From Nostoc linckia z4 (lineage in GTDB: Bacteria; Cyanobacteriota; Cyanobacteriia; Cyanobacteriales; Nostocaceae): DNA of 64,000 bases. Positions within the stretch are counted from its first letter, which is position 1. Each line of letters opens with the position of its first letter. Shown one piece after another: positions 2,901 through 41,649 of the stretch. The DNA lies in the NCBI RefSeq assembly GCF_002608075.1, contig NZ_LAHA01000001.1, positions 66,757 through 130,756 of the forward strand. The letters run 5' to 3'. The notes under the pieces were generated by a model, which did not search any database, was not told where the DNA came from, and saw nothing but the letters and a program-made list of their open reading frames with translations. The translations under genes were made by a program, and so were the position numbers.

Positions 2901-5900
2901 TTAATTATCAGTGGGAATTTTAATTAAAAACTCTGTCCCTTCTCCTGGTTTGGACAAACATTTAATTTCACCATGATGTTTTTCAACTACAATTTGATAG
3001 CTGATAGACAATCCTAAGCCTGTGCCTTTACCTGGTTCTTTGGTGGTGAAGAAGGGGTCAAAAATGTGCGATCGCACTTCTTCTGGCATACCCAAACCAT
3101 TATCAGCTATTCTAATTAAAACTTGCTGATTAACTATTTGAGTACTAATCCAAATAGTTAAGGGAATCCTGGGGCGTTTTTCCCTTAAATCTAAATATTT
3201 TTGCTGTATGGTGTTGAATTTTTCCTCTAATGCATCAACACTGTTACTTAAAAGATTCATGAATACCTGATTTAATTGTGCGGGATAGCATTCGAGTAAG
3301 GGTAAAGTACTATATTCTTTGATAATCTCAATAGCTGGGCGATCGCTATTACTTTTCAATCGATGCCCTAAAATCAGCAAAGTACTATTTAATCCTTCAT
3401 GAACGTCTACTGCTCTCGATTCTCCTTCATCTGTACGAGAGAAGTTTCGCAGTGATAGCACAATCTCATGAATTCGCTCTGCTCCTATCTGCATAGAGTC
3501 AACAGTTTTGGGTAAATCTTCAAGAATAAAGTCCAAATCCGTCTTTTCAAATTTCTTTTGCACATCTGGAAGTTGGTGATAAAACTTCACAGCTTCCAGT
3601 ATTTCTTGAGTATATTCTTTTAAATGTATGAGATTACCAAAAATAAAATTAATTGGGTTATTGATTTCGTGGGCAACTCCAGCTAAGAGTTGTCCTAAAC
3701 CAGCCATTTTTTCGCCCTGAATTAATCGGCTTTGAGTTTGTTTTAATTCTTGCAGAGTTTGAGTTAATTCTGAAGTTTGACGTTTAGTTTGTTCGAGTAA
3801 TTCTGCCTGCTGAATTGCAATTCCTAATTGCACTCCCACTTGAGCTAGAAGATTAATTTCTTCTTCTTTCCAATAACGTGGTTGGGAATTTTGATAAGCA
3901 ACTAACAAACCCCATAATTTTTCACCTTGGCGAATGGGAACGAAGGTTTCGTTGCGTGGAAGTTCATTATCATCATCTGTATCTTCAAAATTTTCTAAAA
4001 TCAATGGTTGAGTGTTGACTACAGGTTTCCAACCATCTTTAAAGGAATCTGCGACAAATTTACCGCTCCAATCTGAGTTAAAGCGGTAAATAGCAACTCG
4101 CTCTACTTCCAGTAATTCTCGCACAGCTTGAGTGGTAGTTCTAAAAATAGTTTTAATATCGAGAGACTGACGTATTTTATCAACAGTTGCAGCTAATAAT
4201 TCTTGTCGTTCCATTGCTTTTTCTCGTTCTGTAGCTTCTGCTAATTGGACAGCTTGCATTTGAACTTGTTTAATATAAGAATCTTGTTTTAATGCTACTC
4301 CTAATTGTTCGGCAATTTGAGTGGCAAATTCAATTTCTGATGGTTGCCATTGGCGGGGAGCATTGCATTGGTGAATACATAGTAAGCCCCAAAGTTCGCC
4401 TTGTTTCAAAAGTGGAGCAACCATATTAGCACGCACTTGGAAAGCTGCTAGAATTTGCACATAACAGCCTTGAAAACTTCCTTGATAAATATCAGCGATC
4501 GCATTTACTCGACCTTGGGCATAAAGCGGTGCAAAATGTTCGCTAAAGCAGTGGTCGTAAACTTGTTCTCCGATGGCTGAAGTCCAACCATCAGCTACAT
4601 CTTCGTAAACAAATTCTCCTTCCCAGTCATTTTGATAATCAAAACGGAATACCCCTACTCGGTCGGCTTTGAGTAGTTGCCGCATTTCGGTGACAGAAGT
4701 TTGAAAAATTGTATCTAAATCTAAAGATTCACGAATTCTAGCAATTACGCTAGTTAATATCTTTTGTTGTTCTGCTTGATATCGAGCTTCATGTAAAAGT
4801 TTATTATGTTGTAAAGCAACCCCTAAATTTTCTGCAATTTGACTGACAAATTCAATTTCTGAAGGTTGCCAAGTTCGAGGGTTGCTACATTGATGAACGC
4901 AAAATAACCCCCACAATTCACCTTGCTTCAATAAGGGAACCACCAAATTAGCCCGCACCTGAAATTTGCTCAGAATCGCTGCATGACATTCACTTAATCC
5001 CGCCTCGTAAATATCTGCAACTGCTTGCACTCGACCTTGTTGATAATTAATAGCAAACTGTTGTCCAAAACAGTGGTCGTAGACTTTGGCTGCAATTACT
5101 GAGTTGCATTCAGTAACAACATCTTCGGAAATAAATTCTCCTTCCCAATCTTTTTGAGGGTCAAAACGAAATACTGCCACTCGGTCTGTTTGTAACATTT
5201 GCCGGACTTCAGTGACAGAAGTTTGAAAAATTGTGTCTAAATCCAGCGATTTACGAATACGAGTAATCACGCTGGTTAATGTTTTTTGTTGTTCTGCTTG
5301 ATACTGAGCTTGTGCTAACAACTCATGATGCCGCAGTATCACACCAATTTGCGTACCAATTTTCGAGAGGGATTCCACTTCATAGGATTGCCATTGTCTA
5401 GGGGAGGCATTTTGATAAGCAGCAATAACTCCCCACAGTTTTTCCCCTTGGAGAATTGGCGCAGTTGCAAAGGCTTTTACTTGAAATTGTTCTAACAAAG
5501 TAATATGGCAATCTGTTAATCCAGCTTGATAAATATCGTTAACTGTAAACGTCTCATTTTTCAGGTAGCGCCCTCCTTGAGTTTGTTGTAGATAACTATC
5601 AGCGATCGCTCCTTGAATTCCAACTAAGGGAGTCCATCCTTCGGCAAATGATTCAGCCACAAAGCTACCACTCCAATCAGCGTTGAAGCAAAAAATAGCA
5701 ACTCGGTCGGCTTGCAATAGTGTGCGTATTTCTTGGGCTGTTGTTTTAAAGATGATGTCAATATCGAGAGGCGAACGAATTGTATCAACAAGCTGAGCAA
5801 TTACTTGGTCGCGCTGGGCTGCTTGAGCTAATTTTGCTGCTTGTAATTGGACTTCATGAAGATGCTTTCCTTGTTGAATTGCAACTGTTAAATGGTCAGC

Positions 5901-13718: not shown

Positions 13719-13858
13719 AATAGACTTCTTGCAAAAGTCGGGAAAAGGGGGGAAAGGTTTGCTATTTTCCCTTTCCCCGGTTGGTGAGCTTGTCGAACCA
13801 TTAACCTTTTCCCTTTTCCCAAAATAGTGCAAAAAGCACTTTTGCAAGAGGTCTAATA
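13719..13858. mobile_element. MITE-like element, AATAGACTTCT ends (copy 2)
   Basis: AATAGACTTCTTGCAAAAGT at the left is matched by inverted ACTTTTGCAAGAGGTCTAATA at the right; 140 bp, with a GGGAAAAGGGG / CCCTTTTCCC interior and the GGTTGGTGAGCTTG segment. A 65-codon open frame that crosses it (13630-13827) is not a gene. Confidence 0.7.
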
Positions 13859-13877
13859 AAGGCGTCGTCTTCAGAAT

Positions 13878-14489
13878 TCAGGCGAAAGGTTGAAAAATCT
13901 GTTCAGCAGTTAAATCTAATTCTGGGAAAATAGGCGAGACGATGCGCTCATTGCCTCTAAATTGAGTAACTTGGTATTCACCGTCAACTAATTGATAAAC
14001 AGAAATAGTAGGTTGTTTGGGATTACCGAGAAACTTTTTACCACCAATACCTAAATAATCAACAATCCAATATTCTTTTATCCCTATTTCCTCATATTCA
14101 CCTAGTTTTTTATGATAATCATCCCGCCAATTAATGCTAACAACTTCGATCGCTAAAGCAATGGAATCGGCAAATTTAACTGTAGAATATTTTTGCCAAA
14201 GTGGCTCTAATTTTAAAGCAGGACGGTTGAGTAATAGCAAGTCTGGAGAATAGCAAGACTGACTAGTAGGAGATTGGACTAATGCTGTTTTTGGGATGGA
14301 ATAAGGTAGGCCATTACGAACGTACTCAACGGCAATTTTTTCAACCAAAAACCCGACAATATCCTCATGGTCTCCTGCTGGTTGTGCCATTTCAACAATC
14401 ACCCCATCATGTAATTCATATCTCCCACCTTCAGGCCGCCATGCTGCAAAATCTTCAAAGGTTACTAGTTTTGGTATGGCTTGAGTCAT
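13878..14489 (-). CDS. Uma2 family (DUF820) restriction-endonuclease-fold protein
   Basis: This 203-residue protein begins MTQAIPKLVTFEDFAAW, followed by GGRYELHDGVIVEM. It has the Uma2 catalytic region in SPDLLLLNRPAL and SIALAIEVVSINWRDDYHKKLGEYEEIGIKEYWIVDYLG (acidic residues plus Lys of a PD-(D/E)xK core). It is the subtype with the FLGNPKQPTISVYQL insertion. Predicted nuclease fold, unknown biological role. It is transcribed toward the inverted-repeat element just downstream. Confidence 0.88.
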   Translation of the reverse strand: MTQAIPKLVTFEDFAAWRPEGGRYELHDGVIVEMAQPAGDHEDIVGFLVEKIAVEYVRNGLPYSIPKTALVQSPTSQSCYSPDLLLLNRPALKLEPLWQKYSTVKFADSIALAIEVVSINWRDDYHKKLGEYEEIGIKEYWIVDYLGIGGKKFLGNPKQPTISVYQLVDGEYQVTQFRGNERIVSPIFPELDLTAEQIFQPFA

Positions 14490-25687: not shown

Positions 25688-25978
25688 ATGACAACACAAA
25701 TAGTCTTAAATAAAAAAGTATCCTTATCTGCAAATGTTCTGACTCAAGACTTAGCAGGGGAGTCAGTTTTGTTGAATCTGCAAACTGAAGAATATTTTAG
25801 TCAAAACGAAGTTGGTACAAAAATATTCTTTGTGCTAACTGAGTCAGATTCTATCCAGACAGCTTACGACACCTTGCTAAAAGAGTATGATGTCGAGCCA
25901 GAGAAGTTAAAACAAGACTTACTCAAGTTTATTGATAAATTGGTTAAGGCTGGACTAGTGGAAATTACTGATTCTTAA
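25688..25978 (+). CDS. PqqD-like RiPP recognition protein (lasso B1-type)
   Basis: This 96-residue protein has the PqqD/RRE winged-helix layout: a beta-strand start (NKKVSLSANVLTQDL), GESVLLNLQTEEYFSQNEVGTKIFFVL (the Y-F/LN-G-xxI region that binds leader peptides), then helices ending LLKFIDKLVKAGLVEI. In lasso and other RiPP pathways such a stand-alone domain (B1) binds the precursor leader and delivers it to the B2 protease. It is the first gene of the cluster, 21 bases before a glycosyltransferase gene, and its B2 partner lies about 5 kb downstream. It starts at ATG after a MITE. Confidence 0.85.
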   Translation: MTTQIVLNKKVSLSANVLTQDLAGESVLLNLQTEEYFSQNEVGTKIFFVLTESDSIQTAYDTLLKEYDVEPEKLKQDLLKFIDKLVKAGLVEITDS

Positions 25979-25999
25979 CCGAAAGCAAAAAATTAAATC

Positions 26000-27181
26000 A
26001 TGCGTGTACTAATGATTGGTTCCGGAGGTATTGCCTTGACACGACCCCTAGATTGGGCAGTCAAAGCAGGTTATGAAGTTTGGCTACTAGGTGATGTAGA
26101 TCCCTATGAAACCGAACCTCCTAAAAACTACCGCTATTTCCCCACTGTTTGGCAAAATTATGCAGAAAAATATACCAATACCTACCCTTATGAAGACCAA
26201 ATGGCAGAGGAAATGGTAGAACCGTTACGTCAACTTGTCGATCGATTCCAACCTGATATCATCCATGTCCATGCCATTGGCTGGCACGCCTACTGTTGTA
26301 CCCTAGCAAATCTTAAACCTCTTGTCGTCTCTGCTTGGGGATTTTTAAATCATTTGCTACAACCAGAAAAGGAATCCAGCAAGCATAAAGATAGGGTTAG
26401 CCAAGTATTTAAGCATACTGGTGTGCTGATTGTAGAGACACCCCATTTGATAGAAAAATCCAAAGCACTGTTGAACCCCGAACAACGGGTAGAATTAATT
26501 CCTCTAGGGACAAACCCTAAACATTTTCGCTCTGGAGTCACAAAAGATTTACCAAAGTGGCGACGGGAAATCTTGAAGATTTATGAAGAAGCCACAATTC
26601 TGCTTTCGCCCCGTGGTTGGTCTAAACTGTACAACCACGAGCAGATATTTACAGCCTATACACAGGCTTTTCCCCAATTCACCAAACCGACGGTACTCGT
26701 CTTTTCAAAGCTAGGGCGTGCTGGTGGGGAAGAAGCAGTAACTATATACGAAAGCATCAGCAAACAAGCTCAACAACTTGGCTTATTAGAAAACCTGCGC
26801 TGGATGCCTGCCCTACCTTATAGTTTCATGCCCACAGGCTACAACTTAGCAGATGTAATTATCAATTATCCTACTAACGATGCTTTTCCTTCCACACTCA
26901 TTGAAGCAGTTGCCTGCGAACGCCCGGTGATTACTTGTGATTTGCCAGCTTATCGGGGTACTTTTATTGAAGAATTTTGTACTTTGGTAGAATCTGAAAA
27001 CCCAGAAGCTTTGGCAAAGGCAATGATTAAAGTCGTCAATCAACCTCCCCAAGAACGAGAATCACATCTTGCAAAAGCACGGCAAGCGATTGTCGAACAA
27101 TATGATGAGGCGAATTTACAAAATCGGCTGTTCCGAGTATATGAAGATTTGGCATCTACTACTAAGCCAATCTCTGCCTAA
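26000..27181 (+). CDS. GT4-family glycosyltransferase of the RiPP cluster
   Basis: This 393-residue GT-B fold enzyme has an N-terminal domain beginning MRVLMIGSGGIALTRPLDWA with FQPDIIHVHAIGW, and a C-terminal nucleotide-sugar domain with LLSPRGWSKLYN and the ExxxxxxxE-like segment TLIEAVACERPVITCDLPAYRG. Retaining GT4 enzymes transfer sugars from NDP- or phospho-sugars. It follows the PqqD gene by 21 bases and precedes the precursor genes, so the peptide or a co-exported glycan is the likely acceptor. A close functional analogue cannot be named from sequence. Confidence 0.85.
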   Translation: MRVLMIGSGGIALTRPLDWAVKAGYEVWLLGDVDPYETEPPKNYRYFPTVWQNYAEKYTNTYPYEDQMAEEMVEPLRQLVDRFQPDIIHVHAIGWHAYCCTLANLKPLVVSAWGFLNHLLQPEKESSKHKDRVSQVFKHTGVLIVETPHLIEKSKALLNPEQRVELIPLGTNPKHFRSGVTKDLPKWRREILKIYEEATILLSPRGWSKLYNHEQIFTAYTQAFPQFTKPTVLVFSKLGRAGGEEAVTIYESISKQAQQLGLLENLRWMPALPYSFMPTGYNLADVIINYPTNDAFPSTLIEAVACERPVITCDLPAYRGTFIEEFCTLVESENPEALAKAMIKVVNQPPQERESHLAKARQAIVEQYDEANLQNRLFRVYEDLASTTKPISA

Positions 27182-27541
27182 ATTTTCCATTATTAAGTTT
27201 GATTATGTTTTACATCTAAATATAAATGACGAAATAGATAAACTTAGAAGATACAAAACAATGATATAGCTTCAGCAGAAAAGTAGGTTGGGTTACTCTA
27301 CCAGATATCGTAGATTATCCTCAATTAAACCTACATCAATTGCAGTTTTTAGCATTAATTGAACACAATTGATTTTTATCTTTAAAATAATCTTTAATTA
27401 TGGTCTTTTTGATAACTTTTAATAACAAAAAATAGCACATATTTTACACAAAATTTATAAAAACAACGACGCGCTCGTTGTACTGTATTCATAATCTGAT
27501 AATTCCAAATCAGCAAAGCACAAAAAACAAGAATTACTCAA
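27182..27541. promoter_or_regulatory. AT-rich region expected to hold the precursor promoter
   Basis: The 360 bases between the glycosyltransferase and the first precursor gene are strongly AT-rich with no gene. Precursor genes usually need their own strong promoter, and this gap is where it should lie. No -35/-10 pair could be chosen with confidence. Confidence 0.35.
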
Positions 27542-27697
27542 ATGTTTCAATCTGAAAACATGAAAAAGAACTATTCTGAGCCTGAATTGAAAGCTCACGG
27601 CAAAATATCTGGTTTGACACAACAAGTCGGTGGTAGTGGTGGTTTTGGTACTACAACCGGATTACCCATATCTACTACCAATGTGTTTTTTCCTTAG
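27542..27697 (+). CDS. Lasso-like RiPP precursor peptide A
   Basis: A 51-residue peptide. The leader carries the lasso-type recognition pattern YxxPxLxxxGxxxxxT exactly (Y11, P14, L16, G20, T26). With the conserved Thr at position -2, the core would begin at Gln28: QVGGSGGFGTTTGL then PISTTNVFFP. The core is rich in Gly, Ser, Thr and hydrophobic residues. It contains no Asp or Glu, so the usual lasso ring (N-terminal amine to Asp/Glu at position 7-9) cannot form. Ser and Thr offer sites for the kinase and glycosyltransferases encoded alongside. It is a twin of the peptide at 27883-28026; codons 10-35 are identical at the DNA level. Confidence 0.82.
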   Translation: MFQSENMKKNYSEPELKAHGKISGLTQQVGGSGGFGTTTGLPISTTNVFFP

Positions 27698-27882
27698 AAT
27701 TTAAGTATAAAAAACACCAAAAGCTCAACTTCACTCGCTGTCATATAAATGATGGCAGGGTAGAGTTAGCAAGTAGGAAAGATTTATTCGGCAATATTAT
27801 TGACCTAATAAATCTAGACTAAATACACCTTTCTACTTGCCCTCTTATGAGGCTATTGTTTACACACATAAGGATTCTTCAA

Positions 27883-28026
27883 ATGTCACAATCTGAAAAC
27901 GCGAAACAAAACTATTCTGAGCCTGAATTGAAAGCTCACGGCAAAATATCTGGTTTGACACAACAAGTCGGTGGTAGTGGTGGTTTTAGTACTACAAGAC
28001 CCGCACCCATCACTGGTCTTCCGTAA
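27883..28026 (+). CDS. Lasso-like RiPP precursor peptide B
   Basis: A 47-residue peptide with the same leader motif (Y11, P14, L16, G20, T26) and a predicted core QVGGSGGFSTTRPAPITGLP. Compared with peptide A, the leader and VGGSGGF block are identical from residue 10 to 35 without even a silent change, while the tail differs. This indicates recent duplication or gene conversion with a diversified product end. It again has no acidic residue in the core. It is followed by a 9-bp hairpin and an intrinsic terminator, so the precursors may be transcribed more strongly than the downstream enzymes. Confidence 0.82.
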   Translation: MSQSENAKQNYSEPELKAHGKISGLTQQVGGSGGFSTTRPAPITGLP

Positions 28027-28045
28027 TACATTTTCTACTTTTTTC

Positions 28046-28117
28046 TTCCATTGGAAGAAAATTATGTAAGTTTTAGTTTTCAAAAAATCCTGACTTTTTA
28101 AATAAGTCGGGATTTTA
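28046..28117 (+). terminator. Hairpins after the precursor genes
   Basis: Two stem-loops follow precursor B. The first is TTTTCTTCC-ATT-GGAAGAAAA (about 28046-28066), the second AATCCTGACTT (28086-28096) pairing with AAGTCGGGATT (28104-28114) and followed by a short T run. The second has the form of an intrinsic terminator and would attenuate read-through into the kinase gene at 28152. Confidence 0.6.
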
Positions 28118-28151
28118 AAAATTTTGAATTTGCAAATAAAAATAAACACAA

Positions 28152-29165
28152 ATGTCGATAAAAAATGATAATTATTCCTATCAATTTTATGGACTCAACC
28201 TATCTATTAATCGACTGCTTCCAGGGTTAGTTACTGTCAATAGCTCTGCACCGATAGATGTTGCTATTCACCTAGTTGGCGAACAGCAGAGTCAACCGCC
28301 ATTACTCGACCAAGCTTTTTGGAATGTGCCGCTTGAGTGGTATCAACAAACAGGCTTCCATTTGTGGACAACGCACCGGGATGACGGTACTTACTGGAGG
28401 ATAAGGTCTTTTGATGGGGTTGATTGCTTGGAATTCATTTTGAATCCTGATGGTAGTCAAGTTTGGGGTTTTTGGTCTAGAGATGCACTATTTACAGATG
28501 CGGTATCTTTGCTGCTGGGTTGTGTACTCGGTCATCTGTTACGGCTGCGGGGAGTGACTTGTCTTCATGCCAGTGTGGTTGCGGTTGATGGTAGTGCGAT
28601 CGCCATTTTAGGACAATCAGGCGCAGGTAAATCAACCACAGCAGCAGCCTTGGCTAGCCGTGGATTCTCCGTATTGGCAGATGATATTGCCGCACTTATT
28701 CCTAATGAAAAAAGGTTTTGGGTACAATCTGCTTATCCTCGTCTACGCCTGTGGCCTAATTCTGTAAATGCCATTCACGGCTCAATAGAAGATTTATCGC
28801 TAGTATCAACTAGTCTAGATAAACGCTTTATAGATTTGCAAATAAAAGATAGAGAACAGTGGCAGTTTCAATCCCAAGCTTTGCCATTAATTGCTGTGTA
28901 CATATTAGGAGAACGTGACTCAAACCTCACAGCACCTATAATTAACTCTCTTTCTCTGCCTGAAGCCATGAAGCATCTAATGTTCAATTCCTATGGACGT
29001 GCTTTCCTCACTTCTCAACAGTGTAGACAGGAGTTTCAAGAATTAGGTCAATTGGCAAAGACTATTCCTGTGCGGGAGTTATTACTTCCTGATAATTTGG
29101 GAAGTTTGGGGCAAATTTATGATGTTATTTTAGAAAACTTACACCTGATTCATACTTTGGTTTAG
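28152..29165 (+). CDS. HPr-kinase-like peptide kinase of the RiPP cluster
   Basis: This 337-residue protein has an N-terminal domain of about 110 residues followed by an HprK-type P-loop kinase core: CLHASVVAVDG (His139), Walker A GQSGAGKST (154-162), LADD (175-178) and PRLRLWPNSV. HprK-like kinases in lasso clusters phosphorylate serine in the peptide, so here the Ser/Thr-rich cores are candidate substrates. It lies just after the precursors and is followed by a GT2 gene 52 bases on. The precise target residue is inference. Confidence 0.85.
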   Translation: MSIKNDNYSYQFYGLNLSINRLLPGLVTVNSSAPIDVAIHLVGEQQSQPPLLDQAFWNVPLEWYQQTGFHLWTTHRDDGTYWRIRSFDGVDCLEFILNPDGSQVWGFWSRDALFTDAVSLLLGCVLGHLLRLRGVTCLHASVVAVDGSAIAILGQSGAGKSTTAAALASRGFSVLADDIAALIPNEKRFWVQSAYPRLRLWPNSVNAIHGSIEDLSLVSTSLDKRFIDLQIKDREQWQFQSQALPLIAVYILGERDSNLTAPIINSLSLPEAMKHLMFNSYGRAFLTSQQCRQEFQELGQLAKTIPVRELLLPDNLGSLGQIYDVILENLHLIHTLV

Positions 29166-29217
29166 CAACACCAGTAATTTGGATATCTGCCTATATTTAC
29201 TAAGCAAATTTTTAAAT

Positions 29218-30120
29218 ATGCAAGTTTTTGAGCCAACCGTCAGCGTTATTATTCCTACTTACCAGCGCGGCCATCTTGTTAGTCAGGCAATTAACAGCGT
29301 TTTGGCACAAACCTACAAAGACTACGAAATTATCGTCATCAACGATGGTTCTCAGGATAACACTCCACAAGTGCTGGCTGAATTTAGCGATCGCCATCAC
29401 ATTACCGCTATTCATCAAGCCAATCAAGGATTATCTGCGGCTCGCAATGCTGGAATTCGCTCTGCGAGAGGGAAGTATATCGCCTTTTTAGATGATGACG
29501 ATCTCTGGGAACCTCAGAAGTTAGAAAAACAGATTTCCGTCTTGGAAGCCAATCCGCGCATTGGTTTGATCTATTCAGATTCACTCTTTTTTTCCGATCG
29601 ACAGGGTTTGTTTCCAGGTTCGTACAATACAGCATTTCCTACCCCTAATCTTCAGGTATTATGGACTCTTTTTCAATATAATTACATTCCAGTTTTAACA
29701 GTTGTTGTGCGTCAAGACTGTTTAAATCAAGTGGGGTTGTTTGATAAAACTGTAACTCCTTGTGAAGATTATGATTTATGGCTGCGCGTGATTGAAAAAT
29801 TTCCGATTTACTTTTTAAATCAACCCTTAGCGCGTTATCGGGAATCGCCGAGTAGTCTTTCTCAAGATCGAGAGCAGATGTTAACTAGCCACCTGCGCGT
29901 TAAGGAAAAAGTCATCGATCGCCATCCAGAATTCTTAAAAATCCCTGTTAAATTTCTCGATCCTTGCTTTTACAATATCTACCTCCAACTTGCCAATTTG
30001 CATATTCAAAATCATCAAATAGAGCAAGCACGTAGAGTTTTGCATCGCTATCGAGAAATACGGGGTGAAACCGCTAAGTATGAGAAATTGCGATTATCTA
30101 TATCTACTGAGCAAATTTAA
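29218..30120 (+). CDS. GT2-family glycosyltransferase of the RiPP cluster
   Basis: The frame can begin at TTG 29179, but the ATG at 29218 (MQVFEPTVSVIIPTYQRG) is the family-like start, giving 300 residues. GT-A fold motifs are VSVIIPTYQRGHLVSQAI, YEIIVINDGSQDNT, AARNAGIRSARGKYIAFLDDDDLWEP (the DxD nucleotide-sugar site) and CEDYDLWLRV. It is an inverting family-2 transferase, likely acting on the peptide or an associated glycan. Its 3' end (CTATATCTACTGAGCAAATT) repeats the sequence just upstream of its own start. Confidence 0.88.
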   Translation: MQVFEPTVSVIIPTYQRGHLVSQAINSVLAQTYKDYEIIVINDGSQDNTPQVLAEFSDRHHITAIHQANQGLSAARNAGIRSARGKYIAFLDDDDLWEPQKLEKQISVLEANPRIGLIYSDSLFFSDRQGLFPGSYNTAFPTPNLQVLWTLFQYNYIPVLTVVVRQDCLNQVGLFDKTVTPCEDYDLWLRVIEKFPIYFLNQPLARYRESPSSLSQDREQMLTSHLRVKEKVIDRHPEFLKIPVKFLDPCFYNIYLQLANLHIQNHQIEQARRVLHRYREIRGETAKYEKLRLSISTEQI

Positions 30121-30124
30121 GATC

Positions 30125-31096
30125 ATGCATTTTATTGTCACTGGCGGAGCCGGATTTATTGGCTCTCATCTTACAGAACAATTGTTATCAGAAGGACATC
30201 GTGTCACTGTAGTTGATAATTTGACCACTGGACGCTTAGAGAACTTACCGAAACATCCTCGTCTTAGGTTTATACAAAAAGATATTTTAATATGTCAACC
30301 AGAAGATTTTACACTTAAAGTTGATGGAATCGCACATTTAGCAGCTATTTCATCGGTGACAGAATCTTTATATCGTCCCCTAGAGGCTCATCACAATAAT
30401 CTTTCGGCAACCCTAGCTGTGATTCAACTTTGCCAAGCTTTAACTATTCCTAAATTAGTGTTTGCTAGTTCCGCATCTGTATACGGCAATCTCACTCAAT
30501 TACCGATTTCAGAAGAACAAAAAACCTTTCCTCTATCACCTTACGGCTTACAAAAATTAGTAAGCGAACAATACGCTAGTATGTTTGCTAAACAACTAGG
30601 TTTTTCATTTGTTGGCTTACGAATTTTTAACGTATTTGGCCATAGACAAGTTCCTGATTCCAGCTACTCTGGCGTAATTTCTCGTTTTGTTGATATTATG
30701 CAACGGGGCTTACCAATTACTATTTATGGCGATGGCAATCAAACCAGAGACTTTATTTATGTTAAAGATGTAGTAAAGGCTTTTTCTCAAGCATTAAAAG
30801 CGAATCTTACTCCTGGCTCATCCTTAATTTGCAACTTAGGAACTGGAAAATCTACTTCTTTAGTACAGTTGATTGATATCCTCAAAAATCATTTCCCGCA
30901 ATGGCAATCAGAAATTAATTTCGTTTCTCCTCGTTTGGGAGACATTCAGCATTCACAAGCTGATATTTCCAGGATATCTTCATGTTTAGACTTTCATCCT
31001 CAGTGGTCAGCAGAGTCGGCTATTAATTTTTTTATTGCATCATCTTTGAAAAACAATGATAATTATTCAAAACCACGGTTGACTCTATCTGCTTAA
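30125..31096 (+). CDS. NAD-dependent sugar-nucleotide epimerase/dehydratase
   Basis: The start is ATG 30125 (MHFIVTGGAGFIGSH), 4 bases after the preceding stop, giving 323 residues. It is an extended short-chain dehydrogenase with NAD loop GGAGFIGSH, a catalytic Ser/Tyr/Lys set (FASSASVYG; SPYGLQKLVSEQY), RIFNVFGHRQ and the YGDGNQTRDFIYVKDVV motif of UDP-glucose/galactose 4-epimerases. It probably supplies an activated sugar for the GT2 and GT4 enzymes in this cluster. Confidence 0.9.
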   Translation: MHFIVTGGAGFIGSHLTEQLLSEGHRVTVVDNLTTGRLENLPKHPRLRFIQKDILICQPEDFTLKVDGIAHLAAISSVTESLYRPLEAHHNNLSATLAVIQLCQALTIPKLVFASSASVYGNLTQLPISEEQKTFPLSPYGLQKLVSEQYASMFAKQLGFSFVGLRIFNVFGHRQVPDSSYSGVISRFVDIMQRGLPITIYGDGNQTRDFIYVKDVVKAFSQALKANLTPGSSLICNLGTGKSTSLVQLIDILKNHFPQWQSEINFVSPRLGDIQHSQADISRISSCLDFHPQWSAESAINFFIASSLKNNDNYSKPRLTLSA

Positions 31097-31153
31097 GATT
31101 TAAAAAATGAAAACTGCATTTTCAATAAAAAATCATCAAATATTTAAGTAAAA

Positions 31154-31597
31154 ATGAAGCATTTATCTAAGTTCCTCAAATTAGATTATCAAAAAAAACT
31201 ACTTTTAATTAACACTTTTATTGTATTGACATTAGTTAGATTAGGTTTGTGGTTGCTGTCATTTAAAACCTTGCATCAACTTCTATTAAGGCTAAGTAAC
31301 ACCAAACCTAAATGCCAAGAAAAATACCACGTCTCTATTGACAAAATCATCTGGGCTGTTGAAGTGAGCAGTCATTATATGCCTGGTGTCAAGTGTCTGG
31401 CGCGTGCCTTGACTTGCCAGTTTTTCATGAGTCGCCACGGTTATACATCTAATCTCTGCATTGGTGTTGCCAAAGATATACAAGGAGAATTAAAGGCTCA
31501 TGCGTGGTTAGAAAATCAGGGACAGGTTGTAATTGGCGATGTTGCAGACCTTTCTCATTTTAGCCAACTGGCATCTTTTACAAAAGAGCATATTTAA
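31154..31597 (+). CDS. Lasso-type B2 leader peptidase (transglutaminase-like Cys protease)
   Basis: A 147-residue protein of usual B2 size. An N-terminal hydrophobic helix (residues 17-47) is followed by the catalytic core MPGVKCLARALTCQFFMSRHG (nucleophile Cys81), KAHAWLE (His116) and VVIGD (Asp129). With the PqqD-like B1 protein it should cleave the leader after T26-Q27 of the precursors. It ends 4 bases before the ABC exporter start, so cleavage and export are probably translationally coupled. Confidence 0.9.
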   Translation: MKHLSKFLKLDYQKKLLLINTFIVLTLVRLGLWLLSFKTLHQLLLRLSNTKPKCQEKYHVSIDKIIWAVEVSSHYMPGVKCLARALTCQFFMSRHGYTSNLCIGVAKDIQGELKAHAWLENQGQVVIGDVADLSHFSQLASFTKEHI

Positions 31598-31601
31598 AAA
31601 T

Positions 31602-33419
31602 ATGAAAGCAGGCAAAACTTTAAGATATAAAATCCAGCACAGCTTACGCATTCTGCCTGCGTTGCGCCTAGTTTGGAATAGTAGTCCTCGTTTGACTATT
31701 GCTTTGGTTGCACTTTTGGTTATTCAAGGTTTATTGCCTCTACTCTCTCTTTACCTCACCAAACTGATCGTAGATACAATAGCCGCCAGTGTTAATGTTG
31801 CCGACAAAGGAGCCGCCTTTAATCAAGTATTACTTTTGCTTGGCTTCTTTGTTGCTATCACCCTGGTAACTAACCTGTGTTCTTCCCTGACGGAACTGGT
31901 GTATGCCGCCCAATCTCAGCAACTAACTGACTACATGCAAAACGTCCTCCATGCCAAATCAATTGAAGTAGACCTGGAGTATTACGAAAACTCTGAATAT
32001 TATGATGCCTTGCAGCGAGCGCAAAAAGAAGCTCCTTCTCGACCGGGGCAAATCCTACATCGTTTGGCGTGGTTATGTTTGAGTAGTATCTCTTTGGTGG
32101 CGATGCTGGGGTTGCTACTGTCATTGCATTGGGCAATAGGAGTTATCTTATTTGTTGCCGCGATTCCGGCCTTGGTAGTGCGGGTGAGATACTCCGGCAT
32201 CATGTATCATTGGCAGCGCCGAAAGACAGCCCAGGAACGCCAAGCAGGGTACTTAAGTCGGATACTGACTACAGAACAACACGCTAAAGAAATTCGCTTG
32301 TTTGATTTGGGTTCTTTCTTTAGTGAGTGGTATATGCGTGTGCGATCGCAACTATACCAAGAAAACATAGCCATGATTAAAAGACAATCTGTGGCTAATC
32401 TTGGCGCTCAAGCAACGGCGACAACTTTAGTTTTTGCTGCCTATGGTTTCATTATTTATCAAACTATGCAAGGCACTATCCGTTTTGGCGATTTAGTCCT
32501 CTATTACCAAGCATTACAACGGGGACAAAACGACCTAAAAAGTCTCTTGGGTGGTCTGTCTGGTTTATATGAAGACAACCTATTTCTCGTCAACTTATAT
32601 GAATTTCTAGATTTGAAACCAAAGGTTGTAGAACCATCATATCCAAAACCATTTCCCATACCAATGCAACATGGCATTGTATTTGATCGCGTCAGCTTTC
32701 AATATGCAAATACAAAGCGTCAGGCACTCCAGGATATTAATTTGACTATTCGCCCAGGAAAAGTTGTCGCGTTGGTAGGAGAAAACGGCTCCGGTAAGAC
32801 TACTTTAATTAAGCTTTTGTGTCGCTTATACGATCCCACTTTTGGAAGTATTACCATTGATGGCATAGATTTACGCCAATTTCAAATTGCTACCCTCCGC
32901 AGTCAAATTAGCGTGATTTTTCAAGATTATACAAAATATCATCTAACTGCTAAAGAAAACATTTCGATAGCAAATATTAATCTGTCATTTGCCCAGGACA
33001 AAATCATCGCTGCTGCCCGTCGTTCCGGTGCTGATGATGTCATCAGTAAACTACCTCAAGGTTACGACACCATACTAGGTAAATTGTTTGAACAAGGAGA
33101 AGAATTGAGCATCGGTCAATGGCAAAAAATTGCTTTAGCCAGAGCATTTTTGCGAGATTCACAGTTAATTGTGTTGGATGAACCAACTAGTGCTTTAGAC
33201 CCGAAAGCCGAAGAAGAGGTGTTTCATAATTTCCGCCAACTTATTAAAAATCAAGCTGCTATCCTCATTAGCCATCGCTTATCAACTGTCAAAATGGCTG
33301 ACTGTATCTACGTAATGGCAAACGGTTCAATCATGGAAAGTGGCACCCATGAGGAACTGATAAATCTGGGTGGTAGCTATGCAGACTTGTTTGAAACGCA
33401 AGCCCAACACTATAAGTAA
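31602..33419 (+). CDS. ABC exporter of the RiPP cluster (fused membrane and ATPase domains)
   Basis: The open frame starts earlier (31533) but overlaps the B2 gene; the proper start is ATG 31602 (MKAGKTLRYKIQH), giving 605 residues. A six-helix type-IV transmembrane domain (about 20-320) is followed by an ATPase with Walker A GENGSGKTT, Q-loop, signature LSIGQWQK and Walker B LIVLDEPTSALD plus SHRLSTV. There is no C39 peptidase domain, in keeping with a separate B2 protease. It is likely to export the mature peptide across the cytoplasmic membrane, acting as a dimer. Confidence 0.92.
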   Translation: MKAGKTLRYKIQHSLRILPALRLVWNSSPRLTIALVALLVIQGLLPLLSLYLTKLIVDTIAASVNVADKGAAFNQVLLLLGFFVAITLVTNLCSSLTELVYAAQSQQLTDYMQNVLHAKSIEVDLEYYENSEYYDALQRAQKEAPSRPGQILHRLAWLCLSSISLVAMLGLLLSLHWAIGVILFVAAIPALVVRVRYSGIMYHWQRRKTAQERQAGYLSRILTTEQHAKEIRLFDLGSFFSEWYMRVRSQLYQENIAMIKRQSVANLGAQATATTLVFAAYGFIIYQTMQGTIRFGDLVLYYQALQRGQNDLKSLLGGLSGLYEDNLFLVNLYEFLDLKPKVVEPSYPKPFPIPMQHGIVFDRVSFQYANTKRQALQDINLTIRPGKVVALVGENGSGKTTLIKLLCRLYDPTFGSITIDGIDLRQFQIATLRSQISVIFQDYTKYHLTAKENISIANINLSFAQDKIIAAARRSGADDVISKLPQGYDTILGKLFEQGEELSIGQWQKIALARAFLRDSQLIVLDEPTSALDPKAEEEVFHNFRQLIKNQAAILISHRLSTVKMADCIYVMANGSIMESGTHEELINLGGSYADLFETQAQHYK

Positions 33420-33426
33420 GTAATTT

Positions 33427-34662
33427 ATGATTACCTTAAACCAGCCTATTATTCAATTACCAATAAAGGTTAAACGTCCAGAAATTGAGCTACTTCTGTG
33501 TTGTACCCGAACTCACATAGACTCCGAAACCGCAGAGCGAATTAAAACTTTACTCCAGCAAAACATAGACTGGACATTGCTCATAGAAATAGCAACATAT
33601 CATGGAACAATACCACTTTTATACCAAAGTTTCAATAACATTGGAAAAGAAGCTATTCCCGAAACAGTCTTAACTCAGCTTCGGAATCGCTACCATGCTA
33701 ATGCTAGCCGCAACTTATTTTTGAGTCATGAGTTGCTTAAAATCGTTAAAGTTTTTGAAGCTCACAAAATTAGGGCAATTCCTTTTAAAGGGCTTGTTTT
33801 AGCTATTTCTATTTATGGCAATTTAGCCATGAGACAGTTTAGCGACCTAGATATTTTGGTGAAACAAGAAGATATAGCCAAAGCTCAAGAATTATTGATT
33901 GCTCAGAAATATCAATTAGAAGCTGATTACTATGGTTGGCAACAAACTTTTGTCCATAGCCAGAAACCAGAAATAGTAGTGGATCTTCACTGTGAACTGA
34001 CTCCCTTATCTTACTTTCCTTTTAAACTCCCCGACTTTGAAACTTTGTGGCAACGAAGCAGGTCTTTATCTCTCAATGGTGAATCTATCGTCGATTTATC
34101 TTTTGATGATTTGTTGATTATTCTCACTGTACAAGTTGCCAGAGGAGTTAATGAAGGTAGAGAATCTTTAGCTCAAATTTGCGATTTAGCTGAATTATTG
34201 CGTATTCAACAGACATCAGATTGGGAAGAATTATTGCACAAAGTAAATAGTCTGGAACTTAAAAGACCATTCTTTATTAGTCTGTTAATAGTTAATACTC
34301 TCCTGAATACGCCTTTACCAGACCAACTTAACCAGGCTATTCAACAACAGATCCAAATCGATCCAACAATTGTAATTTATGCTGTACGAATGCAGAAACA
34401 GCTTTTTACTCAAGTTAAAACTCCACGGTTGATTAAACTTTTTTTTCAACACTTGATGATCGATGGGCCACTTAGCAGAATGCCAGTTCGTGTTTATCTA
34501 GTGTGGCAATTTTTGAGTTTTACAACCAGGCTGGCGATCGCTAATTCTAATCAAGCAGACAGAGAAGTTTTCCCATTGCCATCTGGTCTTTCTTTCCTAT
34601 ACTACTTAATTCGACCAATACGCTTGGTAAGTAGATACATAACTAATAGTACATATAGGTAA
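33427..34662 (+). CDS. Nucleotidyltransferase-family protein of the RiPP cluster
   Basis: A 411-residue protein with the Nucleotidyltransf_5 pattern: an N-terminal helical part (LLLCCTRTHIDSETAERIKTLL), RAIPFKGLVLAISIYGNLAMRQFSDLDILV with the D140-x-D142 metal pair, VVDLHCEL, and a helical C-terminal half. Members are common in lasso and related RiPP clusters, where they are thought to transfer a nucleotide or otherwise modify the peptide; no reaction is proven for this branch. It is 7 bases after the exporter and is the last gene of the operon. Confidence 0.83.
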   Translation: MITLNQPIIQLPIKVKRPEIELLLCCTRTHIDSETAERIKTLLQQNIDWTLLIEIATYHGTIPLLYQSFNNIGKEAIPETVLTQLRNRYHANASRNLFLSHELLKIVKVFEAHKIRAIPFKGLVLAISIYGNLAMRQFSDLDILVKQEDIAKAQELLIAQKYQLEADYYGWQQTFVHSQKPEIVVDLHCELTPLSYFPFKLPDFETLWQRSRSLSLNGESIVDLSFDDLLIILTVQVARGVNEGRESLAQICDLAELLRIQQTSDWEELLHKVNSLELKRPFFISLLIVNTLLNTPLPDQLNQAIQQQIQIDPTIVIYAVRMQKQLFTQVKTPRLIKLFFQHLMIDGPLSRMPVRVYLVWQFLSFTTRLAIANSNQADREVFPLPSGLSFLYYLIRPIRLVSRYITNSTYR

Positions 34663-40659: not shown

Positions 40660-41274
40660 ATGGTACAAACACCCGCTAGTCCAGAAACCGAAACCCTATT
40701 GATTGAGTTGCCCAAGTCCATTGGGCTGTATGTTACCCAAGAACAGTTTGCTGCTTTAGCCGCAGCCAACCGAGAATTGAGACTGGAAAGAACCGCACAA
40801 GGAGAATTAATAGTGAACCCACCAACAGGCTGGGAAACAGGAGAGCGAAATTGCAGTATTTCTGGAGAATTGTATTTGTGGTGGCGTAATGCCGGCGAAC
40901 CTGGTAAGGTCTTTGATTCTTCTACAGGCTTCATTTTACCCAATGGTGCGACTCGCTCCCCCGATGCCTCTTGGGTGAGTCAAGAACGATGGCAAGCGCT
41001 GACTTCGGCACAAAAAGGAACCTTTGCTAATATCTGTCCCGATTTTGTGGTTGAGTTACGCTCTAGTTCAGATACCCTCAAATCCCTGCAAGATAAAATG
41101 AGGGAGTATATCGACAATGGCGCTAAACTTGGTTGGTTAATCGACCCACAGCAGGGACGGGTGGAAATTTATCGACTGGCTAAGGATGTGGAAGTATTGG
41201 AAAATCCTGCCCAGTTGTCAGGTGAAGCGGTGTTGCCGGGTTTTGTCTTGAATTTGCAACGGGTGTGGGATTGA
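40660..41274 (+). CDS. Uma2 family (DUF820) restriction-endonuclease-fold protein
   Basis: This 204-residue protein is of the subtype with VTQEQFAALAAANRELRLERTAQGELIVNPPTGWETG at the N-terminus, SPDASWVSQERW, and the core ICPDFVVELRSSSDTLKSLQDKMREYIDNGAKLGWLIDPQQGRVEIYR (D, E and K of the PD-(D/E)xK fold). It ends LPGFVLNLQRVWD, the usual end. Predicted nuclease fold, unknown role. A 21-bp tandem repeat begins about 105 bases after its stop. Confidence 0.9.
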   Translation: MVQTPASPETETLLIELPKSIGLYVTQEQFAALAAANRELRLERTAQGELIVNPPTGWETGERNCSISGELYLWWRNAGEPGKVFDSSTGFILPNGATRSPDASWVSQERWQALTSAQKGTFANICPDFVVELRSSSDTLKSLQDKMREYIDNGAKLGWLIDPQQGRVEIYRLAKDVEVLENPAQLSGEAVLPGFVLNLQRVWD

Positions 41275-41377
41275 AAGCATCTTGCTTGCTATGGGTTAGA
41301 GAAGAAATAGCATTGCCTGAGATAATGTGAGAGAGAGCGTAAATGCAAAGCAAGCGATCGCCAGAATTAAAAACATT

Positions 41378-41580
41378 ACAATGTTGGTCACCAAGGTTAC
41401 GATGTTGGTCATCAACGTTACAATGTTGGTCATCAACGTTACGATGTTGGTCACCAAGGTTACGATGTTGGTCATCAACGTTACGATGTTGGTCACCAAG
41501 GTTACAATGTTGGTCACCAAGGTTACAATGTTGGTCACCAAGGTTACGATGTTGGTCACCAAGGTTACGATGTTGGTTGC
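41378..41580. repeat. 21-bp tandem repeat (about 9-10 units)
   Basis: Units of the form TTACRATGTTGGTCAYCAAS are repeated about ten times in strict 21-bp phase. The changes cluster at three positions (A/G in ACRATG, C/T in CAY and G/C before TTAC). Because 21 is a multiple of three, frames on both strands stay open and read as 7-residue repeats; none has support as a gene. It lies between the convergent Uma2 and STAND genes. Confidence 0.85.
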
Positions 41581-41649
41581 AAATGTTTAAATATAGCTGT
41601 TCTGAACTGGGAACACTGCGGTGTTCTTCAACCAAGAACCGCTTGGCTG

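Follow-up and report, generated by a model that had tools for sequence, protein, structure and literature searches.

Can the machinery that matures lasso peptides be kept in use once its macrolactam cyclase is gone? This question is raised by a one-strand cassette of ten genes, all on the (+) strand at 25,688–34,662 of a 64,000-nt stretch of Nostoc linckia z4 DNA, hereafter the window (G000:C1:66757-130756, from a 9.0-Mb genome of 130 contigs). The cassette encodes, in order, B1, a GT4-type glycosyltransferase (GT), precursors 1 and 2, an HprK-like kinase, a GT2 glycosyltransferase, a short-chain dehydrogenase/reductase (SDR) epimerase, B2, an MsbA-like ATP-binding cassette (ABC) exporter, and an NTP_transf_5 protein (NTP5). 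The first-pass annotation of this DNA described a lasso-peptide-like cluster without a cyclase at 25688..34662, and family matches bear out the genes that it named. Our favored reading, to which we assign a probability of about 0.6, is that these genes form a complete mobile cassette for a ribosomally synthesized and post-translationally modified peptide (RiPP), derived from lasso machinery and working without a macrolactam cyclase to make a linear modified peptide. The product would most likely be a small linear peptide carrying phosphate and sugar.

The absence of a lasso cyclase from the cassette was confirmed, and a PF00733 search of the genome returned seven matches, none of them in the window. 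A tblastn search of nine cyclase-less loci with cyanobacterial cyclases turned up no remnant (best E-value, 0.16), compared with E = 0 in five control loci. When scored against a lasso-cyclase profile built from 14 cyclases of B2 loci, the best protein of the N. linckia genome reached 240 bits, versus 550–960 bits in five control genomes, and 11 of the 13 genomes that carry the cassette reached no more than 262 bits. The exceptions were G001 (953 bits), which also holds the separate canonical lasso cluster (L085) from which this match comes, and G074 (322 bits), where the match is an AsnB-like gene adjoining a second B2. The whole-genome search for a cyclase, which the first-pass annotation had proposed as a check, therefore found none elsewhere that is co-conserved with the cassette.

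Both precursors of the window have the form YSEPELKAHGKISGLTQ|QVGGSGGF(G/S)TT and differ in their tails; core residues are numbered from a cut after Thr-x, assumed by analogy with lasso peptides. Precursor 1 (51 aa; 27542..27697, + strand) is an open reading frame (ORF) kept in relatives, with the leader motif YxxPxLxxxGxxxxLT and the core QVGGSGGFGTT followed by a variable tail. Its start may be 27542 or the inner 27560, the latter because a stop codon interrupts the upstream part in the relatives L172 and L174, where the inner ATG is retained. Precursor 2 (47 aa; 27883..28026, + strand) has the core QVGGSGGFSTT, again with a variable tail, and most likely starts at the ATG at 27883 rather than at 27847, since AAGGA lies upstream of the former. 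Searching the 13 cassette loci by tblastn revealed 31 precursor-like places, 29 intact and 2 broken (L068, at about 13847–13903; L181, at about 3019–3150), and the broken copies are left out of the counts that follow. The lasso-type leader reported earlier holds in that the YxxPx[L..] motif and the penultimate Thr occur in all 29 intact precursors, although the NCBIfam model lasso_cyano matches both window precursors below its cut-off (30.4 and 23.8 versus 33 bits).

Within the core, residues V2, G3, S5, G7, F8, T10, and T11 are invariant among the 29 intact precursors, whereas position 9 is G in 20, S in 6, A in 2, and D in 1. Neither window core contains Asp or Glu, as had been noted, and 28 of the 29 precursors have no acidic residue at positions 7–9. 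In comparison, Asp or Glu occupies one of these positions in 135 of 153 precursors from cyclase-bearing loci, counting only precursors with exact spacing. The difference (28/29 versus 18/153 without Asp/Glu; Fisher P of about 1e-19, relatedness ignored) upholds the earlier proposal that loss of the enzyme and loss of its acceptor agree. Among the 18 exceptions, 17 are acidic at positions 10–15 and the last is truncated where its stretch ends. Nine loci with an AsnB-like gene (L043, L045, L089, L120, L122, L128, L133, L134, and L141) have their first acidic core residue only at 10–14, so that either their ring size or their cleavage site departs from the standard.

These cores could in principle be closed by a different ring chemistry, carried out by the set of kinase, NTP transferase, and GTs and using, for instance, Ser/Thr or phosphate, to give a ring without Asp or Glu. 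The near-invariance of VGGSGGF, which exceeds the seeming need of a simple sugar carrier, would fit such a ring, as would the 18 of 153 precursors from cyclase-bearing loci that also lack Asp/Glu at 7–9; however, family scans found no known cyclizing family among the cassette proteins, and we consider this explanation unlikely.

A second possibility is that a lasso is still made, with some other asparagine-synthetase-like protein of the genome acting in trans as the cyclase. Two of the seven Asn_synthase matches in the genome (575 and 599 aa, contig C65) lack the N-terminal MCG, and the 575-aa protein has homologues (72–91%) in all 8 other cassette-bearing congeners. In a quick tree of the AsnB family with long branches, this protein, itself on a long branch, falls within a wider set of 24 rows that includes lasso-cyclase rows (Shimodaira–Hasegawa-like approximate likelihood ratio test [SH-aLRT], 96), apart from the genome's other homologues. 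However, all of the genome's homologues, the 575-aa protein included, fall outside the main cyclase clade of 20 rows (98), and homologues of that protein (70–87% over most or much of the length) also occur in 29 of the 44 congeners from which the cassette, as marked by the kinase, is missing. The sharing of such proteins among cassette genomes is patchy: G126 has only one AsnB, of 643 aa, which is 31% identical to the N. linckia protein on C31 and 27% to the 575-aa protein, while in G156 and G200 the cyclase profile found only the C65 pair. No profile-detected protein is common to all 13 genomes, with the proviso that a small type on C69 (395–411 aa) escapes the profile and was not traced in the other genomes. 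Given, in addition, the ceiling of 262 bits in 11 of the 13 genomes and the missing acceptor in 28 of 29 intact cores, a trans-acting cyclase is very unlikely, and we rejected it on the profile scores, the AsnB tree, and this patchy sharing. Contig C69 itself (L155:7447-14325) encodes three neighboring proteins of 395–411 aa with Asn_synthase matches.

Next, we consider the linear-peptide reading in the light of the cassette's distribution. The cassette was found in a group of nitrogen-fixing cyanobacteria, namely, in 13 Nostocaceae genomes (G000, G001, G028, G074, G110, G126, G134, G156, G167, G198, G199, G200, and G203) with four genus codes (g1, g2, g27, and g28), and in G134 and G203 it is divided between two contigs. 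In the family sample, B2 was present in 100 of 192 genomes, and 116 B2 loci were fetched, some lower-scoring B2 places not being among them. An AsnB-like ORF lies within the stretch in 103 of these 116 loci, a number that is an upper bound for cyclase-bearing loci because AsnB-like proteins of the N. linckia genome itself served as seed for the cyclase hidden Markov model. The corresponding epimerase model also picked up B2 ORFs, and none of the counts rests on it. The 13 loci without one comprise eight cassette loci (L059, L064, L067, L068, L072, L084, L086, and L090, the last on a short contig), three of lanthipeptide type (L087, L123, and L127), an orphan B2 (L124), and L143, a different system with no cyclase seen, which was left out of the cassette set and whose one precursor is, by reading, the sole "noC, True" case. 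The genus search detected a kinase orthologue at 96–100% in 9 of 53 genomes, adding four cassette genomes, and a scan of named genomes returned nine loci in eight genomes of Nostoc, Desmonostoc, and Cylindrospermum, with Nostoc calcicola FACHB-3891 and Cylindrospermum sp. FACHB-282 among the carriers. Of 386 genomes sampled across the phylum, only six, all Nostocaceae, had a kinase orthologue above 700 bits, the next best match scoring 248 bits.

Two other kinds of locus came to light in this survey. In the three lanthipeptide-type loci (L087:9854-14907, L127:5582-10252, and L123:5665-10313), a lasso-B2-like peptidase has as neighbors a large synthetase and a leader protein of the NHase-alpha type (NHLP-like); L087 has the domains Transglut_core3, NHase_alpha, and DUF4135 plus LANC_like, and the ORFs of L123 and L127 look alike, placing a lasso-type protease in a lanthipeptide setting. 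At L182:9118-11100 lies an eroded lasso remnant with HprK-like, B2, and B1-fragment sequences, in which precursor, cyclase, and exporter were not seen.

Comparison of flanking DNA, counting matches over 300 bases, revealed that both window flanks are common to L072, L172, L173, L174, and L068. Five other loci (L084, L064, L059, L086, and L067) match the window only from 25.57–25.69 kb to 33.4–34.66 kb and have unrelated flanks. In cassette-free congeners the same backbone site holds almost nothing (L186; 0.4 kb) or different DNA (L185, L187, L188, and L189). The P450 genes to either side are part of the backbone, because L186 matches them too. The cassette is, within the reading favored above and at the same probability, a complete, mobile unit.

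Ratios of nonsynonymous to synonymous substitution rates (dN/dS) were calculated for the cassette genes other than the epimerase by comparing the window with as many as seven of the other 12 cassette genomes. They ranged from 0 to 0.27 for B1, 0.15 to 0.23 for GT4, 0.07 to 0.24 for the HprK-like kinase, 0.24 to 0.39 for GT2, 0.08 to 0.17 for the ABC exporter, and 0.18 to 0.37 for NTP5; pooled over precursor pairs, they were 0.03 for the leader and 0.12 for the start of the core. Most cassette genes and the precursors are thus under purifying selection, while B2 is weakly constrained. These values bear on whether the locus is a decaying lasso cluster that has lost its cyclase and makes no product. 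The cyclase is indeed absent here and present in related clusters, the epimerase is truncated in some members, precursor copies are broken in L068 and L181, and B2 is weakly constrained. Against decay stand the selection on B1, GT4, kinase, GT2, ABC, NTP5, leader, and core start, the several intact and diversified precursors in most loci, and the spread over four genus codes of a cassette that matches as a unit without its flanks; the truly eroded L182, with its B1 fragment and no precursor, exporter, or cyclase seen, looks different. We rejected decay, which we regard as most unlikely, on the lack of cyclase remnants, purifying selection, unit transfer, and the contrast with L182. The earlier view that this is a stable alternative pathway stands, since the cassette is kept in 13 genomes, is transferred as a unit with most genes under purifying selection, and has left no cyclase relics.

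In phylogenetic analysis, the kinase tree set the cassette rows apart from all others as one group (SH-aLRT, 100, quick); the B1 trees did the same (94, quick; 85/81, careful), and the rows were likewise united in a B2 tree from which nine long-branch rows had been removed (SH-aLRT, 97, quick). The nearest kinases (L128, L167, and L168) and the nearest B1s (L141, L167, and L169; 98/90) all belong to loci that carry an AsnB-like gene placed in the cyclase clade. Loss of the cyclase from the cassette lineage is therefore the simplest reading, with roots uncertain. Direct derivation of the core from GSGGD-type cyanobacterial precursors (L038/L040/L057) was rejected because those loci and the cassette are not paired in the B2 and B1 trees; the likeness of GSGGF to GSGGD may thus be convergent.

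Several observations weigh against a functional cyclase-free pathway as we read it. With all B2 rows included, the tree does not unite the cassette rows (two changes needed; one group in 6% of bootstrap trees), and B2 evolves fast (dN/dS, 0.30–0.91). The acidic residue at positions 7–9 that the first-pass annotation had named as contrary evidence is absent from 28 of the 29 intact precursors but does occur once, as D9 (FDTT) in L173:11780-11938, and there are the two broken copies. Truncated forms of the epimerase occur in L059 and L064 and a partial one in L086, and dS could not be estimated for NTP5 in L067 and L086 or for ABC in L067, which are too distant, so that not every modification looks fixed. 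C-terminal Ser is the modification site in paeninodin-type lassos; the cassette tails are variable, without a common C-terminal Ser. The role of NTP5 is also uncertain because, in a study of Bacillota peptides, deletion of lppN had no visible effect (PMC13381572).

Judged from homology, the pathway would begin with B1 (25688..25978, +), a PqqD-like RiPP recognition element (RRE), or leader-binding adapter (Pfam PqqD, 54.8 bits; NCBIfam lasso_PqqD_Bac, 55.1 bits, under the cut-off of 80), whose closest PDB match is TbiB1 (E-value, 5.6e-7) and which would bind the YSEPEL leader motif and present the precursor. The predicted HprK-like peptide kinase (28152..29165, +; Hpr_kinase_C, 34.1 bits, cut-off 33.3) has H139, K160, and D178, identical in 54 of 54 aligned homologues, and D177 in 52 of 54. 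It would phosphorylate the core, most likely at the invariant Ser5, predicted as the site because no other Ser of the core is invariant, with T10/T11 as alternatives. The NTP_transf_5 nucleotidyltransferase-like protein (33427..34662, +; PF14907, 192.2 bits) may then cap the phosphate with a hexose, in the manner of PsmN of pseudomycoidin, which we take to be a member of the same NTP_transf_5 (PF14907) family. Sugars could be extended or added by GT2 (29179..30120, +; Glycos_transf_2, 130.5 bits) and GT4 (26000..27181, +; Glycos_transf_1, 55.3 bits), with a nucleotide sugar adjusted by the dispensable SDR epimerase-like protein (30119..31096, +; Epimerase, 194.4 bits; galE model, 188 bits, under the cut-off of 262). 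B2 (31154..31597, +), a predicted cysteine leader peptidase (NF033537, lasso_biosyn_B2, 115.2 bits, cut-off 33) and the sole B2 detected in the genome, would cleave after Thr-Gln to release a linear core QVGGSGGF-x-TT-tail; its residues C81 and H116 are present in 63 of 63 aligned B2s, and a comparison with solved structures gave no match. Export would fall to the MsbA-like permease-ATPase (31599..33419, +; ABC_tran, 119 bits; MsbA_lipidA, 286 bits, under the cut-off of 602). The family scan also matched Transglut_core3 among the cassette proteins (79.8 bits), and a PADLOC search with four proteins returned one weak kinase match only.

As for known systems, lassos of the paeninodin/pseudomycoidin type have in common with the cassette B1, B2, an HprK-like kinase, a nucleotidyltransferase-like protein, and a leader motif with penultimate Thr. 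They differ in possessing a cyclase C, an acidic acceptor, and a modified C-terminal Ser, where the cassette has no cyclase gene, no acceptor at 7–9 in 28 of 29 precursors, and tails without a C-terminal Ser in common. Cyanobacterial lasso clusters (B1-B2-C-A-HprK-ABC-NTP5; lasso_cyano) have homologous B1, B2, kinase, ABC, and NTP5 and the same leader register; they differ in gene order, in an AsnB-like ORF in 103 of 116 B2 loci (upper bound for cyclase), and in Asp/Glu at 7–9 in 135 of 153 precursors, whereas the cassette includes GT4, GT2, and an epimerase. Lacking cyclase and acceptor, the cassette is not filed as a lasso peptide. In searches of the open-licence PMC literature, we recognized no description of a cyanobacterial cyclase-less lasso-type cluster.

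The logic of the cassette would appear to be like that of linear polyphosphorylated peptides (LPPs) of Bacillota, published in 2026 (PMC13381572). That paper describes, for lpp of Paenibacillus alginolyticus, a discrete RRE, an HprK-like kinase, an NTP transferase, an MsbA-like exporter, a lasso-like YxxP leader, and no macrolactam cyclase, all as in the cassette, and reports that LppK phosphorylates Ser3 of the cyclase-free linear core; another (PMC9266682) describes Ser phosphorylation followed by hexosylation by PsmK/PsmN. The same account of LPPs gives a SpI-like signal peptidase, a conserved core set without glycosyltransferase, and occurrence in Bacillota only (PMC13381572), whereas the cassette has B2, built-in GTs, and a cyanobacterial host, with no SpI-like peptidase among its scanned proteins. 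The "candidate new class" of the first-pass annotation is weakened by this precedent, while B2, the GTs, and a B1 nearer to lasso proteins still set the cassette apart.

Membership in the LPP family itself would account for the shared RRE, kinase, NTP transferase, exporter, missing cyclase, and YxxP...H..I...T leader register, but B2 replaces the SpI-like peptidase among the cassette genes, and B1 groups with L141, L167, and L169 from cyclase-bearing cyanobacterial loci (98/90). In addition, B1 matches TbiB1 (33 bits) and PbaB1 (9x90; 31 bits) better than LppB (9x8z; 17 bits, E-value of 0.07), the structures being identified in PMC13381572; in the B1 tree, the single LppB row lies on a long unresolved branch. 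We consider such membership highly improbable and, the SpI peptidase being absent, do not file the cassette as an LPP. The closer resemblance of B1 to TbiB1 and PbaB1 suggests, but does not prove, an origin independent of LPPs. A more tentative extension of the linear-peptide reading, possible but doubtful, is that the cassette represents a second, independently evolved cyclase-free lasso-derived RiPP, namely, B2-released linear cyanobacterial peptides with a phosphodiester-linked sugar on Ser5, extended by dedicated glycosyltransferases, and an invariant Phe8 at the acceptor position. If so, the lasso toolkit (RRE, leader peptidase, kinase, and NTP transferase) would have been freed from cyclization on at least two occasions, once in Bacillota and once in cyanobacteria, and phosphate/sugar decoration could be the main modification. 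Because Ser5 and Phe8 are conserved and the set of ten genes is compact, both the kinase site and the function of the NTP transferase lend themselves to direct tests.

Elsewhere in the window, an ORF at 41180-41635 on the (−) strand consists of repeated DQHRNLGDQHCN-type units and is probably not a gene but a short tandem repeat.

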